33,308 nucleotides of DNA, taken from the NCBI GenBank assembly GCA_947632235.1, contig CANROO010000007.1, forward strand, positions 1 through 33,308, given 5' to 3'. Below the pieces are notes generated by a model. That model worked only from the letters and a program-made list of their open reading frames with translations. It was not told the origin of the DNA and did no database searches. Within the stretch, counting starts at the first letter, position 1. Each line of letters begins with the position of its first letter. Source of the DNA: an uncultured Clostridia bacterium. GTDB taxonomy: Bacteria; Bacillota; Clostridia; Lachnospirales; CAG-274. Below, in pieces: positions 2,432-14,110 of this stretch. A program made the translations under genes and the position numbers.

Positions 2432-3565
2432 ATGGACATTCTGGATAAGTATATCGACCAACTGCTTGAAAAAAGCACACCTCAGGCTCCTATATGGAAC
2501 ATTGAGAAGATCAAGAGCGGAAAGCCCTCTACATGGAACTACATCGATGGCTGTATGATAAAAGCCATTCTTGACCTCTATGCAATAAAGGGCGACGAAA
2601 AATTCCTTAAATTTGCCGATGATTTTATAGATTATTTCGTTCAGGAGGACGGAAGCATAAAGTCATACGACCCCAAGGAATACAACATTGACAACGTAAA
2701 CGCAGGAAAGACATTATTTGAGCTCTACAAGCTGACGGGCAAGGAAAAGTACAAGAAAGCCATAGAGACGATATATTCGCAGGTGCAGTCTCAGCCGAGA
2801 ACGGAGGAAGGCAACTTCTGGCACAAGATGATATATCCCAATCAGGTATGGCTTGACGGTATGTATATGGGACAGCCTTTCTATATGCAATATGAGGTGG
2901 AATACAACAACTGCAAGAACTGCAGAGACAGCTATGAGCAGTTCCTCAATGTATACAAGAACTTGAGAGACCCCAAGACGGGACTTTACTACCACGGCTA
3001 CGACTGCTCAAGAAAGGCTTTCTGGTGCGACAAGGTAACGGGACTTTCAAGAAACTTCTGGCTGAGGGCTCTGGGCTGGTACGCTATGGCTCTTATAGAC
3101 ACGATTTCCGTTATGCCCGAAAATATGCAGGCTGAGAAGGATAAGCTCTCGGAGATATATAAGGAGCTTATAGACTCTATGCTCAAGTATCAGAGCGAAA
3201 ACGGTATGTGGTATCAGGTGGTAAATCTCGGCGGAATACCCGGCAACTACCTTGAGACAAGCGGTAGCTCTATTTTTGCTTACGCAATAATGAAGAGCGT
3301 AAGAATGGGCATACTTGACGAAAGCTACTTCAAGTACGGCGAAAAGGCGTTCAACGGCGTATGCGAGAAATATCTTTCCGAAAAGGACGGAGAGCTCCAG
3401 CTTGACGGCATATGTCTTGTGGCAGGCTTGGGACCCGAGGACAACACAAGGCGCGACGGCACATTCGGCTACTATATGTCGGAGCCCGTTGTGTCAAACG
3501 ATGCAAAGGGTGTCGGTCCTCTCGTGCTCGCTTACATAGAGATATTGTATAAGGAAAAGGGATAA
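2432..3565 (+). CDS. GH105 family glycoside hydrolase (unsaturated rhamnogalacturonyl hydrolase, YteR/YesR-like)
   Basis: 'WLDGMYMGQPFYMQYE', 'LSRNFWLRALGWYAMALIDTI', 'NYLETSGSSIFAYAIMKSVRMG' match GH105; RBS AAGGAGG upstream of the ATG. Confidence 0.9.
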   Translation: MDILDKYIDQLLEKSTPQAPIWNIEKIKSGKPSTWNYIDGCMIKAILDLYAIKGDEKFLKFADDFIDYFVQEDGSIKSYDPKEYNIDNVNAGKTLFELYKLTGKEKYKKAIETIYSQVQSQPRTEEGNFWHKMIYPNQVWLDGMYMGQPFYMQYEVEYNNCKNCRDSYEQFLNVYKNLRDPKTGLYYHGYDCSRKAFWCDKVTGLSRNFWLRALGWYAMALIDTISVMPENMQAEKDKLSEIYKELIDSMLKYQSENGMWYQVVNLGGIPGNYLETSGSSIFAYAIMKSVRMGILDESYFKYGEKAFNGVCEKYLSEKDGELQLDGICLVAGLGPEDNTRRDGTFGYYMSEPVVSNDAKGVGPLVLAYIEILYKEKG

Positions 3566-4871: not shown

Positions 4872-5576
4872 TCAATCTATTCCTAATATTTCCCTGCTTC
4901 GCTTTTCGATGTCGTCAAGCACTCTTGCGCCGAGCTTTTTATTTATTATTTCAGCCGCCTTGCCGAGCGTCTGAGGTCTTGAGTCGGTGTTGTGCATATC
5001 CGAGCCCAGAAGCCTGACGGTGCCGTCCGAAAGCCATTTAAGCGCCTTGCCCTTTGTGAACATACTGAGAAGATGCTCGCCGTTCATCTGGGCGACCACA
5101 CGCATGGACAAAAGCCTTTCGATATTGTCCGTGCCCTTCTGAAAGCCCGTGAAGCGCTCCAGATGCGCGATAACGGGAATAAGCTTGCGGTTGTATATTA
5201 TATTCTCCACCTCTTGGAAAACCCTCGAATTCCATTTGTTGAAGGGCATTTCAAGAAGAATATATTTTGTATTGTTTATTGAAAGGCGCTCTATGCCCTC
5301 GTAATCGCTTATGCCGTTGAAATAATACACCTCGGCGCCGTAATATATATCGGGGATATTTTCCTGTCCCTCAAGAGCCCTTTCGAGCTTATCTACGGCG
5401 TGAGCGCGTCTTTCGAGAAAGCTGTGTACGGAGTCGCCTTTTATGTAAAAATGAGATGTGGAAAGCACTGCAGTCACACCCTGAGCCGAGCTTTCCTTAA
5501 GCATTTCCACTGACATTTCGGGGCTTTTGCTGCCGTCGTCCATGTTGGGAAGAATATGAGAATGCATATCTATCAT
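4872..5576 (-). CDS. PHP-domain tyrosine-protein phosphatase (CpsB/YwqE family)
   Basis: 'MIDMHSHILPNMDDGSKSPEMSVEMLKESSAQGV', 'VIAHLERF', 'LLGSDMHNTDSRP'; start reassigned to 5576 with RBS AGGGGGG. Confidence 0.88.
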   Translation of the reverse strand: MIDMHSHILPNMDDGSKSPEMSVEMLKESSAQGVTAVLSTSHFYIKGDSVHSFLERRAHAVDKLERALEGQENIPDIYYGAEVYYFNGISDYEGIERLSINNTKYILLEMPFNKWNSRVFQEVENIIYNRKLIPVIAHLERFTGFQKGTDNIERLLSMRVVAQMNGEHLLSMFTKGKALKWLSDGTVRLLGSDMHNTDSRPQTLGKAAEIINKKLGARVLDDIEKRSREILGID

Positions 5577-5665
5577 AGAACTGCCCCCCTGCTGAAACTT
5601 TTGGGTATAAACCGATAGAATAATTATATAAAAATAAAAATGTTTTGTCAATAAATTTGGAAATT

Positions 5666-5717: not shown

Positions 5718-8700
5718 TTACTTTGCGGAATATACAGCAGTCTTGGTGTCTGCGTCCCAGTCTACTTGCACTCCCAGAGCATTGCCTAAAGCCCTGAAGG
5801 GAACGAACATTCTGCCGTCCGTTATTTCAGCCTTAACACCGTTGTCCATGGTCTGCTGTTTGCCGTTTACGGTCATTACATTGTTGCCTGCGGTGAATTG
5901 TATGGTTCCGCCGAAACTTATTGTTGCCGTCTTAGTGATTGCATCCCATGTTACAGACTTGCTGTTGTCGGCATCCGATACATCGCCGCCCGCTATTGCA
6001 AGAGCCACAAAACGGAGAGGAACGAGGGTCGAATTTGAAGCTGTCTGTATGTAGGGAGCCGCATCGACAGTATATTCCTTGTTGCCTATAACTACGGAGC
6101 TATTGCCTATAGTTACCTTTACAACATTTGAAAGAGCGGGCGCTGCGGTAGTCGCCTCTGTCTTGGGCTCGGACTTAGAAGCTGACTTTGAGGTTGTTGC
6201 TTCCGTAGTTGCCTCGGTCGTTGTGGTCTTATTTGATGACGATGATGAACCTCCTCCGCCGCCCGAAGGACCTCTTCCGCCTGTAGGATCCTTCTTTGTG
6301 GTGGTCTCCGTGCCTGTTTCGGTTACAACTGCCTTGGTTGTGGTCTCGGTGGACTTGTCTGTTACAGTCGTTGTAGTGGGCTGTGTAATAGGAGCCTTGG
6401 TAGTGGTCTGGGTTGATGTTACGGTCGTTGTTGTCGCCTGAGTTGATGTCTCGGTCACTGTGGTTGTTGTAGATGAACCATCTTTTTCAAACACAGCATT
6501 TAATATTCCACCTTCATCAGCTTTTGTTTTGTATATTGGTATTGAGCTGATTTTTTTGTCATTTACATACCAACCTACAAAATGGTATCCTGAATCAGGT
6601 ACAGCTCTAAATTCCACAAAATCCGATGAATCATATACACCTGTACCTGTTGCATTTCCACCGTTTGATGAATTAACTAAAATAAAGGTTCTGTTATAAT
6701 TATACTCATCTGCTGACACAATATATTTTTTTTCATCTTTTCCGTGTGGAATCGCATGAAATGACATATTGTTATATAAGTCATCTTTGGGAATAATTGC
6801 ATAAAATACATTGCCATTTCTTATAGCTTTACTTTCTTTTTTAATACCATTTTTATCCTCATATACAACAGTCAAATCATCAATTATATCTTGTACATAT
6901 TCATATACTTCATATGCAACAACATAATCGTTTTCTGTTGTCAAAGTTCCTGCATTAATAAGACTTGCTACACTATCAATATCTTCCACATTATAATTTA
7001 TTATAGCAGCATCAGATAAATTTCCGCTTGAATCTTCAACTGTAAGAACCGCAACATGGTCTCCTACTCCTACAAAATCATCAAACTCAAATTCACCTGT
7101 TGAAGGATCATAGCAATCTAAATATAAATTTCTTTCTTCTCCATCAACTAAAAGCTTTATATTGTATACTGATATAGAGCTAAAATCAGAATTAAATGTT
7201 GCATTAAATCTACCAAATATTGAATTAATAGGGGTATATTTAAAGTCTTTTATTGTTGGCTTTGTTGTATCTAAACAAAGCATATATTCTCCGCTCTTAG
7301 TAATTGTTGCGCTTACAGTTTTATTTGTTAAATCAACATTACTTTCAAGCTTATTGTAAAGGCCTTCTGTATTATCCCACTTATAAATTGCAACATTGCT
7401 TATTTGTGAATCTGTAAGTTTTGAAATATCTACTTCTGCATATGATAACTCAAGCTTCATAGGCGTATCTTCAAAATCTTCAATGTAGTTTCCATTTTCA
7501 TCACTAACATTTACAATAAATGTATCTCCAAAAGATTTTGCCACACCAATATTGTCTTCTTCCTGAAGTTGATCTGCTCTAAGGATATTATACACCGGTT
7601 TGGATATAATAACATCATTGCTGACTGTCGCAATATCATCATCTTTAACTCTTGAAATGGTTACTTTTCGATTTTTATTGTCAGTTTCAACAGGTGTTAT
7701 TTTAGCCATACCTAATATTGAAGCGCCTATATTTGCTCCTGCTTCAACAACATTGTCAACAACATCCGTTACATAGTCTTTTAAAATATCTTCAATGGGA
7801 TCAAGGAATGAAAGTAGATTATAATTTTTTGCCCATGAGTAATCATCATAGACGCCTGTTTCTTTTATACCATTTTTATTGAATACACCTTCACCTGTTG
7901 TATATGAACTGGAAACAGCTCCAGAAATATTTGCGTCTAAGCCTACTGTTACACCTGCACCAATGCCAATAGATAAGGGTAATGATATTGTTTTTGTATT
8001 GCTTTCATTGTCCTTATAATTTGAATAATCGTTATATTCACCCAGAATATTCAATAAATTTTCCATGTTGTTTTCGCTTATGGTCACACCATCTTTATCA
8101 ACATATTTTTTAATATCGGCATTTTCTGCAACAAGCTTATCAAACAAACTTCCTGATACTTCAGCTTCAAAACTGTTTCTTGTAATATCTGTATTGCCAA
8201 ATAGCTGTACAGGATTTTCAGAAACAGGATATTCTACACTATAGTTAATTTTTTCTGCTTTATCTTTGGTGTCATAATCAACTTTAAATTGTTTAGTTGT
8301 ATCATAATCAACCGTCTTAATTTTTCCTATTGAAGTGCTTATTTTTGTAGAATTTTTATTTTTAGCCGCAAAACCAAGTTTGAAAAAGTCTGCTGCTTCG
8401 GTAAAGGTCTCTTCCAAAGTTCTGCTGGAAGACTTGTCACCCTTTTTGCTTTCAGTAAAACTTGTAACGGTTTCGCTTTTATTTCCCGAGAATGTACCTT
8501 TCAAATTGCCATAAGATACATTAACGCTAGCACCGCCTTGCGAAAATGAAACAGCAATTCCGTCTTTAGTTGTAATATTATCTTTAATATTTTTTGTTTC
8601 AACCAAATCCATTAATTTATTATTTATCTTGGTTAAAACTTTTGATTTTAAACCTGTACCCGTTGAAAGAAATACATCAAAAACAGTAAGAGCCGCATAT

Positions 8701-11700
8701 ATAGCATTTTCTCTATATTCCGGAGAGTTTTTATCAAAGTAATCTTTAAGTGTGATTGTGTAGCCGTCTATCTTGCTGTAATCAAAATCACCGCTTGCAG
8801 CATCAATACCTACTTCAACACTTGTGTTTTTGATTTTTGAACCCAAGCCTATACTTGCGTTTACTCCTGCCTTGTACGGATTTCTGTCAACACTTAAAGT
8901 TAAATCTGTATTTCCCGGGCTTTGATTATAACCTATGCCAAACCGCCTTGACGAGCCAATAGAAACACCGGATTTTATTTCAGATAATTCTATCGGTCCA
9001 AATTCTAAAGTTGCGCCTGTATTTCCATATACGCTGCTTTCAACTTTGCCCGAAAAAATTTTACTGAAAACTAAATCATCTACTTCGATTTTATAAAATA
9101 AATTGGTATTATTGTATACAACACCTGCTCCCTCTGCCAAACTCACAGTTATGTCCATATCTGAGCTTACATTTGGAATTCTTATATCAAATACACCGTT
9201 ACTGTCCGTTATGGTTGTGTCATAGCTTTCTCCATTATTTAATGTGTAAGTAACGCTTTGATTTGCCACAGGTTCATTTTTACTGTTTAACAAAGAAGCA
9301 TATATAACAGCTGTTCCGTTTTTACCTACTTTGACAGTTGAATTATCAAGTTCAGGATAATATGGAAGAACATTATATTCTGTGTCAACCTGCTTTATTT
9401 CAGGCATAACCAATAATACACAGCTTGCCTGTGCGCCATCATCGGCTTTCACCGTTAGTACAGAAGAACCTTCTTTTATAGGTCTAAATGTTCTGCTTAT
9501 TGTATTATTAGCTTTATTTCTATCTTCGGATATTCCTTCTGCAATACCGGCATCGGATAATGTCCATGAAATACTGTTAAGAAAACTATCTACATATTTA
9601 TCTGAACTATTCTGTGTTGAATATGTTGCATTAATGGTTATAGGGGTTCCCACATAAGCATATTTCACTATATTTCCGTTTATTTTGAGTGTGGTATCGC
9701 CATTGCTGCCGCTGTCAGAACCAATATACTTAACGCTGTCTGTACCTATTATCTTAGCTTCATTATATTGTGTTTTCTCAAGAGCACCTACAATATCCCT
9801 CTGTGATGCATAATAATTTTTACCCCTGAATTCTGCTATCTGGTCATATAATTCATCAAATTTTTGATTTTCATAATACTCACTACCTCGTCTACCAACT
9901 TTTAATCTGCCAATCATACCGCCTATATAGTCATTTTCTTTTTTATCACTATAACTTATTTTTCCATAACTATTACAATTTTCTATAGTTTGCGTAGCAT
10001 CTTCGGTAAGATCTAGTCTTTCATTCGAACCTATTAGTCCGCCAATAACACAACTGTTATCTGTATCACTTGAAGTTATATTGCCATAGTTATCGCAATT
10101 TTTTATATTCCAACATGTTTCTGCTGCTATTCCACCAATCTTACCACCGTTAACCACATTTATATTCATGTATGACTTGCAATTTTCAAGATTGTGTACA
10201 CGACAATTAGATATAATACCGCCAATCATGCTACAATTTTCAGTGTATATGGTTCCCTTTGACATACAGTTATAAATTTTTACATTCTCACCCGTAATTG
10301 TTGTTGCACATATTCCACCTACCTGTACATCCCATATATCAAATAAAAAAGGAAATCTGTCATTTTCATTATAAATATTATAATCATTTGATTTCACTGA
10401 AATATTTCCCTCATATGTACTATTTTTTATATTAACTTCATTTTCTTCGGCATAAGTTATACCACATCTATATACAATACCGCCTATTGATACATTATGA
10501 GGCACACTTGAATCACAAGATATATCACAATTGACTCTACAGTTGTTACATTGATTAACATAGGTTGATAATCCTCCTACCCAAAATAGACTACCTTGTA
10601 AAATGATTTCGCCTTCATAATATGAATCTTCAATTGAATTTACAGAAGTTGCTATTCCGCCAATCTCATCCACTCCACCTATATTGTAATCATATATAAT
10701 TGATGTAGAATAACTTTTATTAATTGATAAACAACAACCTGCAATTCCGCCAATGCGCCTACCTGAATTATATGTTGTAATATTACCTGTACTATAAGAG
10801 TTATATATTCTACACTCGCCGTCTTCTATATATTCTGATTCTGAACCAATTATACCGCCGATATTGCCATTTACAGAATTTTCCATGTTATTCATAATAT
10901 AAATATCTCCGCTTGAATAACAATTCATAATATCTGTACTTTTATTAGCTATTCCGCCTACATCTATAGTATTACTGCTATATTTTGTTGGATTTAGATC
11001 AATAGAAATGTTGCCTGCATTAATACACTTTTCAATTCTATCAAAATATCCTATACCCGAAACATATGCACTTGCTGATTGAATGCAATGTATATTTATA
11101 TTCATCATATTAATTGTTTTATCAATTGAATCGGGATTCCGTAAAGTACTAGAACTACCTCCAGCGTTATATGGTGATGCAATATTTAATGCAATTCCAT
11201 TTGCATCACACTGCTTACCGGAGCAATATAATGTTCCAGAAGAATAACAACTCAAAATTTTTGCATTAGCATAACGATCAACGCAAATGCCGGCAACCCT
11301 AGCATATGTAGTTATATCAGACCCTGTCTTATAAACGGCAATATTACCATTTACATAACAGTTATATATTTCTAAATCTGTTAAATCATTGGCATTGCTA
11401 TCATAATTAATCGTAACCAAACCACAGGCAATCTCGCTTCCCGTGACATTTACATTTTCTAAACCTATATTTCTGAATATATAATTTGAATTCTCAGAAT
11501 AAGGATAACCTATACACAACAAACTTGCTATATCAATATTTTCGGAAATAGGTACATTCAAATTATATATTTTATGTCCGCAACCCTCAAGAATTATACC
11601 CGCAAAAGAACCATACTTATTATTTTCAACTACTATGGGTTCCCATATACCATTATTATAAGTACTCAAATCAATATCTTGCGTAAGATAATATTTTCCA

Positions 11701-12044
11701 TTATCTCTGATATTTGCTAAATCTTCGGCAGTACTTATAGGAATATAATCGTCAGTAATATTATATTCAATATCTTCTATAAAACCGTTATCCTTTATAT
11801 AGGGCATATCGGCAACGGGTTCTATAAAATTACTTTCTCCTATTTCCGGTACTGTAAAACTAGCCGTAGCAATACCGTAATCTTCATTTTCAAAATCATC
11901 AGGATAGTCAACTGATGAAGGTGTAATAATGTTATCCTCATTTGAAATAAAATCTCTTAATAGATCATTTTCTTCAGCATAAGCATAATTTAAACTTGTT
12001 ATCAACATAACCACGGAAAGTAAAAAACTTATTTTTCTTTTCAT
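5718..12044 (-). CDS. Very large (2108 aa) secreted/surface mosaic protein: signal peptide, GLUG-like beta-helix repeats, Ig-like segments, uncharacterised middle region, InlB B-repeat-like domain, Thr/Val linker, C-terminal copper amine oxidase N-terminal-like domain
   Basis: Signal peptide MKRKISFLLSVVMLITSLNYAYAEE; repeated 'IGGIx...NSYSTGNI' units; 'GSGYHFVGWYVNDKK'-type InlB repeat (actual DSGYHFVGWYVNDKK); 'TTTTVTETSTQATTTTV' linker; C-terminal 'LVPLRFVALAIAGGDV...MFVPFRALGNALGVQVDWDADTKTAVYS'. RBS AGGAGG upstream. Confidence 0.9.
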   Translation of the reverse strand: MKRKISFLLSVVMLITSLNYAYAEENDLLRDFISNEDNIITPSSVDYPDDFENEDYGIATASFTVPEIGESNFIEPVADMPYIKDNGFIEDIEYNITDDYIPISTAEDLANIRDNGKYYLTQDIDLSTYNNGIWEPIVVENNKYGSFAGIILEGCGHKIYNLNVPISENIDIASLLCIGYPYSENSNYIFRNIGLENVNVTGSEIACGLVTINYDSNANDLTDLEIYNCYVNGNIAVYKTGSDITTYARVAGICVDRYANAKILSCYSSGTLYCSGKQCDANGIALNIASPYNAGGSSSTLRNPDSIDKTINMMNINIHCIQSASAYVSGIGYFDRIEKCINAGNISIDLNPTKYSSNTIDVGGIANKSTDIMNCYSSGDIYIMNNMENSVNGNIGGIIGSESEYIEDGECRIYNSYSTGNITTYNSGRRIGGIAGCCLSINKSYSTSIIYDYNIGGVDEIGGIATSVNSIEDSYYEGEIILQGSLFWVGGLSTYVNQCNNCRVNCDISCDSSVPHNVSIGGIVYRCGITYAEENEVNIKNSTYEGNISVKSNDYNIYNENDRFPFLFDIWDVQVGGICATTITGENVKIYNCMSKGTIYTENCSMIGGIISNCRVHNLENCKSYMNINVVNGGKIGGIAAETCWNIKNCDNYGNITSSDTDNSCVIGGLIGSNERLDLTEDATQTIENCNSYGKISYSDKKENDYIGGMIGRLKVGRRGSEYYENQKFDELYDQIAEFRGKNYYASQRDIVGALEKTQYNEAKIIGTDSVKYIGSDSGSNGDTTLKINGNIVKYAYVGTPITINATYSTQNSSDKYVDSFLNSISWTLSDAGIAEGISEDRNKANNTISRTFRPIKEGSSVLTVKADDGAQASCVLLVMPEIKQVDTEYNVLPYYPELDNSTVKVGKNGTAVIYASLLNSKNEPVANQSVTYTLNNGESYDTTITDSNGVFDIRIPNVSSDMDITVSLAEGAGVVYNNTNLFYKIEVDDLVFSKIFSGKVESSVYGNTGATLEFGPIELSEIKSGVSIGSSRRFGIGYNQSPGNTDLTLSVDRNPYKAGVNASIGLGSKIKNTSVEVGIDAASGDFDYSKIDGYTITLKDYFDKNSPEYRENAIYAALTVFDVFLSTGTGLKSKVLTKINNKLMDLVETKNIKDNITTKDGIAVSFSQGGASVNVSYGNLKGTFSGNKSETVTSFTESKKGDKSSSRTLEETFTEAADFFKLGFAAKNKNSTKISTSIGKIKTVDYDTTKQFKVDYDTKDKAEKINYSVEYPVSENPVQLFGNTDITRNSFEAEVSGSLFDKLVAENADIKKYVDKDGVTISENNMENLLNILGEYNDYSNYKDNESNTKTISLPLSIGIGAGVTVGLDANISGAVSSSYTTGEGVFNKNGIKETGVYDDYSWAKNYNLLSFLDPIEDILKDYVTDVVDNVVEAGANIGASILGMAKITPVETDNKNRKVTISRVKDDDIATVSNDVIISKPVYNILRADQLQEEDNIGVAKSFGDTFIVNVSDENGNYIEDFEDTPMKLELSYAEVDISKLTDSQISNVAIYKWDNTEGLYNKLESNVDLTNKTVSATITKSGEYMLCLDTTKPTIKDFKYTPINSIFGRFNATFNSDFSSISVYNIKLLVDGEERNLYLDCYDPSTGEFEFDDFVGVGDHVAVLTVEDSSGNLSDAAIINYNVEDIDSVASLINAGTLTTENDYVVAYEVYEYVQDIIDDLTVVYEDKNGIKKESKAIRNGNVFYAIIPKDDLYNNMSFHAIPHGKDEKKYIVSADEYNYNRTFILVNSSNGGNATGTGVYDSSDFVEFRAVPDSGYHFVGWYVNDKKISSIPIYKTKADEGGILNAVFEKDGSSTTTTVTETSTQATTTTVTSTQTTTKAPITQPTTTTVTDKSTETTTKAVVTETGTETTTKKDPTGGRGPSGGGGGSSSSSNKTTTTEATTEATTSKSASKSEPKTEATTAAPALSNVVKVTIGNSSVVIGNKEYTVDAAPYIQTASNSTLVPLRFVALAIAGGDVSDADNSKSVTWDAITKTATISFGGTIQFTAGNNVMTVNGKQQTMDNGVKAEITDGRMFVPFRALGNALGVQVDWDADTKTAVYSAK

Positions 12045-12093
12045 TGCATTTCCTCCTGATAATTTTTAGCATACTTTAGTATATTTTAAATAT

Positions 12094-12122
12094 ATTATAG
12101 TTCTTTTTAAAAGAATTGTCAA
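12094..12122 (-). promoter_or_regulatory. Consensus SigA-type promoter for the giant gene
   Basis: On the minus strand TTGACA-attcttttaaaaagaac(17)-TATAAT. Confidence 0.85.
12101..12115. promoter_or_regulatory. Candidate operator palindrome TTCTTTT-T-AAAAGAA
   Basis: Perfect 7-1-7 dyad inside the spacer of the promoter, in the intergenic region shared with a divergent XRE regulator. Confidence 0.5.
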
Positions 12123-12178
12123 TACTGTTTTATGTTAGTAAGCTTAAATTGGGAGATTATATGAAAGGAGGCTTTTAT

Positions 12179-12517
12179 ATGGGAAATACGAATATTTTAG
12201 GGAATACAATACGGCAGGCAAGGATGGAAAAAGGTATTACTCAAGAGGGCTTGGCGGAGATGGTAGACATAACCACCATACATTTAAAGCACATAGAGGG
12301 CGGACAGGGAAATCCGTCAATAAATGTACTTTTTAAGCTTGCCAAGGCTTTGGACTTTTCCGTGGACAGCATAATTGCCGAAAAGGATATATCCGAAAAT
12401 GACGGCTTATCGGAAGCTCTCAAAAGCAATATCCTCTACCTCCTCCAAAAATGCACTCCTGCGGAGCTCAGGCTCATAGCCGACATTATAAAGGACATAC
12501 AGAAAAACAGAGAATAG
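12179..12517 (+). CDS. XRE-family (Cro/C1-type HTH) transcriptional regulator
   Basis: 'GNTIRQARMEKGITQEGLAEMVDITTIHLKHIEGGQGNPSINVLFKLAKALDFSVDSII'; RBS AAAGGAGG supports the ATG at 12179. Confidence 0.93.
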   Translation: MGNTNILGNTIRQARMEKGITQEGLAEMVDITTIHLKHIEGGQGNPSINVLFKLAKALDFSVDSIIAEKDISENDGLSEALKSNILYLLQKCTPAELRLIADIIKDIQKNRE

Positions 12518-12519
12518 CA

Positions 12520-12555
12520 AAAGGACTTCGTGAAGATGTACGAAGTCCTTTCTTT
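12520..12555. terminator. Bidirectional terminator between convergent XRE regulator and sigE
   Basis: aaaggacttcgt-gaagatgt-acgaagtccttt 12-bp stem followed by a T-rich run. Confidence 0.8.
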
Positions 12556-13262
12556 TATACAAGCTTCATTATTTCCTTTCTAAGCCTGCCTATTATTTTC
12601 TTTTCAAGGCGTGATATGTAAGACTGGCTTATGCCGAGGATGTCGGCGACCTCCTTCTGCGTTTTTTCCTCGCCGTCGCTTCCTATGCCGAAGCGGAGCT
12701 CTATTATTTCCTTTTCCCTTCCGCTTAGCTTTTGTATGGCGGTGCGCAAAAGCTGTCTGTCGACCTCCTCCTCTATGCCCCTGTATATTATGTCCACATC
12801 CGTTCCGAGGATATCCGAAAGCAGCAGCTCGTTGCCCTCCCAGTCCACATTGAGGGGCTCGTCTATGGACACCTCGGTCTTGGTCTTTGTGGTGCGTCTC
12901 AGGTGCATAAGTATCTCGTTTTCTATGCACCGCGAGGCATAGGTGGCAAGCTTTATGTTCTTTTCGGGCTTGAAGGTATTTATTGCCTTTATAAGCCCTA
13001 TAGTGCCTATGGATATGAGGTCCTCCACATTTATGCCTGTGTTCTCGAATTTTCGGGCTATATATACCACAAGGCGCAGATTTCTTTCTATGAGCACATC
13101 TCTTGCGTTTTCATCGTTCCTTTCGGTGAGCGCCTCCAGAAAACGCGCTTCCTCCTTCGGTTCAAGAGGCTCGGGAAGTATGTCGCTCCCGCCTATATAA
13201 AATATTTTACCGCTCTCGGCAAATTTTTTGAAAAATCTCTCCAGACAACCCTTTTTCTCCAT
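12555..13262 (-). CDS. sigE: Sporulation sigma factor SigE
   Basis: '[63 protein letters not shown]' and '[14 protein letters not shown]...[24 protein letters not shown]'; start set at 13262 by RBS AGGAGGTATATAATAATG. Confidence 0.93.
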
Positions 13263-13264
13263 TA

Positions 13265-14110
13265 TTATATACCTCCTAAATGTCTTGGACTTATCAATGC
13301 GCTGTACAGCCCGTTTTTGCTCAGGTTGAAACGGCATATACCTATTATGGGCTTATTTATTATTTTGTCATCTATCTTCACGCTGTCTGCCACAAAGCCT
13401 ATCATCATGCCTTTTTCATTGCCTACGCTCCTGAAGGGTATTATCCTCAGACTTTTTCTGAAGCTGTCCTCGGAAATGGCAGAAACTATCTCCATGAGGT
13501 TGCTCTCGCGCTTGTTTTCATATATCTCCACAAGTTTTGAGGGAAGTATCGCCTTTAAGGCGCTGTATTCCGCGACTATGACGGGCTTGTTGCTTATGGG
13601 CTCTATGAGCAGATTGCCCGTATCCACAAGAGCATTTATATTTATTATTTTGTTACTGCAATATATATCTATGGAATGATAGGAAGAACCTTTTTTGAGT
13701 ATATTCAAAACTATATATGAAGCGTATGTTATGCCAAAGCTTATGAGCAGGACAATATAACTGAATTTATCGGTAAAATAGTTAAGAACAAGGAATATGA
13801 CTGCGTTTACGCAGAATGAAACCAGCTTGAAGGCTATGGTGTATCTCATGAGCTGCCATATGTCCAAGGGCTTGAAAAGAAAGACAAGCTCACAGAGGCT
13901 AAGGGCGAGCATGGTCATGAAGTTCAGCGCCGCCCTGTAGGGCGATATGACGATGAGCGTGTAAGCAAGGGAAACACAGAAAGCCGTGAAAAGCTCCCTC
14001 GCAAGGGAAAGTCTTGCCGCCAGAATTTTTTTTGTAAACTCTATTATTAAAAAATTGACCGCAAGGTTTATAAAAAGCATTTCATCCGCATAAATATTGA
14101 CCGTCATCAT
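13265..14110 (-). CDS. spoIIGA: Sigma-E processing peptidase SpoIIGA
   Basis: Polytopic N-terminus, C-terminal '[23 protein letters not shown]' aspartic protease-like DTG motif, directly upstream of sigE. Confidence 0.9.

Follow-up and report, generated by a model that had tools for sequence, protein, structure and literature searches.

A consensus promoter divergent from an XRE-type regulator gene, with candidate operator dyads and apparently exchanged surface-protein genes, in an uncultured Clostridia bacterium

The closest described system by sequence is that of SinR, the biofilm matrix repressor of Bacillus subtilis, a small HTH_3 protein that controls surface or matrix genes and has the half-site motif GTTCTYT (PMC3163267). 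Phages and mobile elements have divergent switches of the XRE/Cro-C1 kind (P22 c2, ICEBs1 ImmR), in which dyads separate a repressor-like gene from a strong promoter that faces away from it. A 17-bp spacer of an exact consensus promoter may also contain a dyad, as at the CsoR-type operator of the genome studied here, and in the C. difficile S-layer cassette the surface genes differ between close relatives and the flanks are alike. The locus described below has something in common with each of these arrangements. It lies in a window of 33,308 nucleotides, in which the gene of a giant surface protein (5718..12044, minus strand, 2108 amino acids) and the gene of an XRE/Cro-C1-type regulator (12179..12517, plus strand) are separated by an intergenic region of 134 bp (12045-12178).

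The small divergent XRE gene that a sequence-only reading of this DNA had pointed out is indeed there: it starts with the ATG at 12179, behind a ribosome-binding site read from the sequence (AAAGGAGG, 12164-12171, plus strand), and encodes an HTH_3 protein of 112 amino acids whose place in the XRE/HTH_3 family is given by an E-value of 8e-13 and a PF01381 score of 48.6 bits against a cut-off of 23. On the far side of xre a hairpin (AAAGGACTTCGT / ACGAAGTCCTTT, 12520..12551) is read directly and, judging from its letters, is likely a two-way terminator; beyond it lie the conserved neighbour sigE (12555..13337, minus strand) and then spoIIGA (13265-14110), and these neighbours fix the position of the locus. 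The giant protein has an N-terminus that, judged by eye, resembles a signal peptide, and a C-terminal PF07833 region, outside which neither Pfam nor NCBIfam gave a function. Close XRE orthologs were found in two other genomes, G001 (97% identity) and G006 (69% identity), and a GTDB scan for close matches returned the same two only, both being rabbit-sample 'Lapin' Clostridia MAGs. Three orthologous loci are thus compared, those of the window genome (G000), G001 and G006.

Among solved structures the best sequence match of the window XRE is SinR (1b0n/3zkc, E 1e-7), and control of surface or matrix genes is what we propose for the window XRE as well. However, the match covers the HTH part only (residues 7-79 of 112), and SinR is a master regulator, whereas the window xre is a divergent local gene beside which no SinI-like gene was seen. 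The half-sites are 2 bp apart in the tested SinR oligonucleotide and 3 bp apart at the window locus. Orthology with SinR or its paralog SlrR was rejected, the SlrR model giving 24.7 bits against a cut-off of 250 and the SinR match being partial. In comparison with the phage-type switches, which the XRE loci of other genus members resemble in being prophage-like, the proposed target at the window locus is a surface-protein operon and the flank consists of sigE and spoIIGA, with no adjoining phage genes. A viral scan with the window XRE returned only distant HTH matches (26-47% identity), so that a phage origin is unsupported.

The promoter of the surface gene occupies 12094..12122 on the minus strand and reads TTGACAATTCTTTTAAAAAGAACTATAAT, with the -35 hexamer TTGACA at 12122-12117, a 17-bp spacer and the -10 hexamer TATAAT at 12099-12094; the TTGACA-N17-TATAAT announced by the sequence-only reading is therefore exact, and xre diverges from it at a distance of 87 bp. 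The window contains two exact matches to this pattern (12094-12122 and 5623-5651) against 0.03 expected in shuffles, and the 2.4-Mb assembly contains 53, against none for the reversed control pattern, so that the consensus sites, taken as a class, can be regarded as genuine promoters, of the SigA (sigma-70) type by their exact pattern and by its excess over the control. Both hexamers and the 17-bp spacing are also exact at the orthologous loci of G001 and G006. The second consensus promoter of the window (5623-5651, minus strand) overlaps the TTG-start end of a CpsB/CapC-like open reading frame (4872-5651) and is retained in G006 (C14:15948).

Three dyads are stacked over this promoter and just downstream of it. 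The palindrome O1, TTCTTTT-T-AAAAGAA, lies in the spacer at 12101..12115 and is a perfect 7-1-7 dyad, exactly as first noticed. O2, TATATTT-T-AAATATA (TATATTTTAAATATA, 12080..12094), had been overlooked; it is likewise a perfect 7-1-7 dyad, placed just downstream of the -10 hexamer. O3, ATACT-TT-AGTAT (12071..12082), is a 5-2-5 dyad downstream of the start site, which is expected near 12087, and both O2 and O3 are candidate operators. According to their coordinates the centres of O1-O3 are 21 and 10.5 bp apart, which is about whole helical turns, and two 7-1-7 dyads within 134 bp have a P of 0.0035.

The sequence-only reading had tentatively assigned the operator to O1 itself (12101-12115); on this view bound XRE would directly block RNA polymerase between the -35 and the -10. 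Its perfect 7-1-7 symmetry at an ideal place agrees with this assignment, as does the enrichment of spacer dyads with arms of at least 7 at the exact-consensus promoters of the genome (5 against 1.1 expected, P 0.0025). The plus-strand half GTTCTTT (12100-12106) fits the motif GTTCTYT of SinR, the nearest solved relative (PMC3163267), although the other half matches at 6/7 only, the spacing is off by one and the site is absent in G006. A dyad at the spacer position beside a likely repressor gene does occur in this genome, since the csoR/copA consensus promoter (G000:C24:8715-8743) carries a CsoR-like dyad inside its 17-bp spacer; another spacer dyad, AAATGCTT-N3-AAGCATTT, at G000:C21:9549-9577, lies upstream of a gene that by eye resembles thiC. 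CsoR belongs to a repressor family unrelated to the window XRE, and the csoR and C21 dyads keep their arms and vary only their loops among G000, G001 and G006, whereas the arms of O1 are not kept in the same genomes. In the G001 promoter (TTGACAATTCCTTTAAAAAGAACTATAAT) the hexamers are intact and one arm of O1 is altered without compensation, and in G006 (TTGACAATTAATTCAAAGTATACTATAAT) the hexamers and their spacing are intact, the XRE ortholog is retained and O1 is lost. Conservation across orthologous loci, which the sequence-only reading had itself proposed as a check, therefore turned out against O1, which fails in G006 and is impaired in G001; nor does it have a second copy at the locus, a candidate for such a copy having been rejected (P 0.88). 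The failure in G006 is softened by the fact that the regulator there has diverged too (69% identity). Taken together, it is rather unlikely that O1 by itself is the operator.

The other dyads behave differently in the same small sample. O2 is perfect in G001, and where O3 would be expected G006 carries TATACTTTAAGTATA, also a perfect dyad, its centre being 45 bases from the start of the -35 hexamer compared with 45.5 for O3; it resembles O2 with one base in each arm changed together, from T:A to C:G. As regards a dyad shared between relatives, which a divergent autoregulated module would have, the three loci thus present an unconserved O1, an O2 kept in G001 and an O3-like dyad in G006. On these few sequences the O2/O3 region may have a better claim to be the operator than the spacer dyad.

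It could also be supposed that O1 is a chance product of an AT-rich spacer, that XRE regulates only itself or a distant target and that the surface gene is constitutive. In a spacer so rich in AT, O1 exceeds the chance expectation by only a modest margin (P about 0.01-0.04): for arms of at least 7 the P is 0.02 in a random spacer of pooled composition and 0.04 when its own spacer is shuffled, and for a random 29-mer taken from the intergenic region after shuffling, when the gap may not exceed 1, it is 0.009. The asymmetric change in G001 is in line with a chance origin, and so is the uniqueness of the motif, a genome-wide search of the 2.4-Mb assembly having found no second exact copy of the 15-mer, so that a regulon of the window XRE is not definable. 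That dyads are common in AT-rich DNA counts against the operator reading in general. On the other hand, the unit of xre and promoter is retained in G001 despite the changed cargo, and all four XRE-divergent consensus promoters of the window genome are linked to PF07833 genes, which makes a constitutive surface gene doubtful.

These four are the promoters, out of the 53 exact ones, from which an HTH_3 gene diverges at a distance of 63-104 bp, in a genome with 18 HTH_3 matches (some of them in sigma factors) and 55 PF07833 matches. Behind C7, the contig of the window, lies the giant protein; the cargo of C101 is LRR_5 plus PF07833, that of C107 an LRR_5-dockerin protein and a cohesin protein with a PF07833 region, and that of C114 PF07833 plus Big_2. 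PF07833 genes or operons therefore follow 4 of 4 XRE-divergent promoters, against 1 of the 49 others within 8 kb (hypergeometric P 1.7e-5, which is indicative only, because the loci are few, some regions are truncated at contig ends and the test was devised once the pattern was known). A further case is G006:C68. Recurrence at four loci thus strengthens the earlier proposal that XRE controls the promoter of an exposed protein, as do the site motifs repeated at the sister loci and the csoR/copA spacer dyad; the proposal loses O1 as its specific operator, while the on/off switch which it suggested may still apply.

Each of the three sister loci repeats its spacer motif at a short distance. The motif of C114, ATAGAGT-N5-ACTCTAT, is present twice, and its spacer copy is identical in three genomes. 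At C101 the 19-bp spacer motif recurs just past the xre stop (L110, 102-120 and 525-543), and this distal copy reads in G001 and G006 as AATATTC-N5-GAATATT, a perfect 7-5-7 dyad and possibly an auxiliary operator. At C107 ATAAGATATTA is found again in front of xre (P 0.045). Among the matches listed the window XRE has no strong second match in its own genome, and the XRE proteins of the four loci are not close to one another, so that each locus is predicted to have its own regulator and its own site. In terms of position, the C114 copies flank a consensus promoter beside another XRE gene (L108, 7856-7910), and the C101 motif lies at 7145-7163 (L154) and 1393-1411 (L157) in the stretches of the relatives. 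A dispersed element of about 100 bp was also seen at C107 (L109, about 3322-3425); both G001 and G006 contain it dozens of times, in either orientation.

In more distant members of the genus, where the best-scoring XRE genes were judged without Pfam, no XRE locus was recognised as a PF07833 operon, and the genes divergent from these XRE genes are mostly prophage-like in look; the link to surface genes is therefore claimed only for the window genome and its two closest relatives. The divergent layout appears to be a general habit of XRE genes, which this sub-lineage uses for surface genes. Within the window genome itself, further XRE genes diverge from promoters that are at or near consensus at L113 (G000:C84, 2975-3359) and L117 (G000:C32, 1787-2489), one of them facing a serine recombinase and the other a superinfection-immunity-like protein (PF14373).

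Given that an exact and conserved promoter lies divergent from the gene of an HTH protein and that this layout recurs at four loci, we consider it probable that this is a regulated divergent promoter, repressed by XRE at dyads over and just downstream of it; the binding, the repression, the signal and the dyad used are what we infer. In the absence of the repressor the surface promoter would be strongly on by default. XRE would bind dyad-symmetric sites over and just downstream of the promoter, repress it and thereby set the expression of whichever surface gene follows, and it would probably control its own gene too. The operator would most likely be at least one of the dyads O1-O3 in this stack, and O2/O3 are better candidates than the spacer dyad by itself. 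There are XRE proteins that activate, such as the C proteins of restriction systems, and restriction-system C-protein chains are among the weak structure matches of the window XRE. Activation of the surface promoter, instead of its repression, is nevertheless very improbable, considering that the three candidate sites overlap the hexamers or lie downstream of them, which is the geometry of a repressor, and that a promoter with both hexamers and the spacing at consensus, such as that of the window, needs no activator.

The genes behind the promoter differ between the three genomes. Compared with G001, identity is 92-100% per 60-column block from about 12083, just past the -10, through xre and onward, with the exception of the terminator block (73%), whereas the surface-gene side is unalignable; at the other end most of the last ~200 codons of the giant gene are 82-100% identical, with a break near 6400. 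The segment 6400..12083, as delimited by these alignment breakpoints, is thus replaced by other genes in G001. Compared with G006 the breaks are near 6480 on the left and, on the right, within xre at about 12457, so that the segment replaced (about 6480-12457) includes most of xre. The xre end of the locus and the C-terminal anchor are kept in the three related genomes, and the promoter is almost unchanged in two of the three. Between these flanks G001 encodes a 172-aa protein, an LRR-dockerin protein and a cohesin-PF07833 protein, and G006 encodes PF07833, NPCBM, LRR-dockerin, GBS_Bsp-dockerin and cohesin-PF07833 proteins. Of the giant protein itself only the last ~250 residues, the PF07833 anchor region, are shared with relatives, and in a search of 36 relatives every match listed lies within its last ~330 residues. 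At C114 a different 675-aa protein with no Pfam match follows an identical promoter in G006.

Different surface genes are therefore present between conserved flanks in close relatives, as in a surface cassette, in a collection that holds one genome per species. The proteins differ from those of the C. difficile S-layer cassette (here PF07833, cohesin, dockerin and LRR), and at the window locus a local XRE gene with its consensus promoter forms one flank. The breakpoints, which are sharp, suggest recombination at the locus; it is formally possible that they are assembly errors of the MAGs, against which stands the giant reading frame, intact across the left-hand junction. On the recombination reading, the locus would supply a constant expression end to surface genes that can be exchanged. 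We propose tentatively, as a reading that is conceivable though short of probable, an expression site with a fixed XRE gene and exact promoter at one end and the PF07833 anchor at the other, between which surface operons (the giant protein, LRR-dockerin plus cohesin-anchor, other sets) would be swapped by homologous recombination. Several such modules would exist per genome, each with its own XRE and private operator and hence its own switch per surface set.

The single ingredients of the locus, the divergent XRE-controlled promoter among them, are already known, and it is the exchange of cargo that is its less ordinary aspect. Our results suggest a testable rule for this uncultured lineage of gut Clostridia, by which surface proteins with cohesin, dockerin and leucine-rich-repeat regions would be placed under a very strong promoter and an XRE repressor that is local and private to each set. 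Should the surface genes indeed be exchanged, a single regulated promoter would act as a socket into which one surface coat or another fits, with consequences for the encounters of such bacteria with hosts, phages and fibre.
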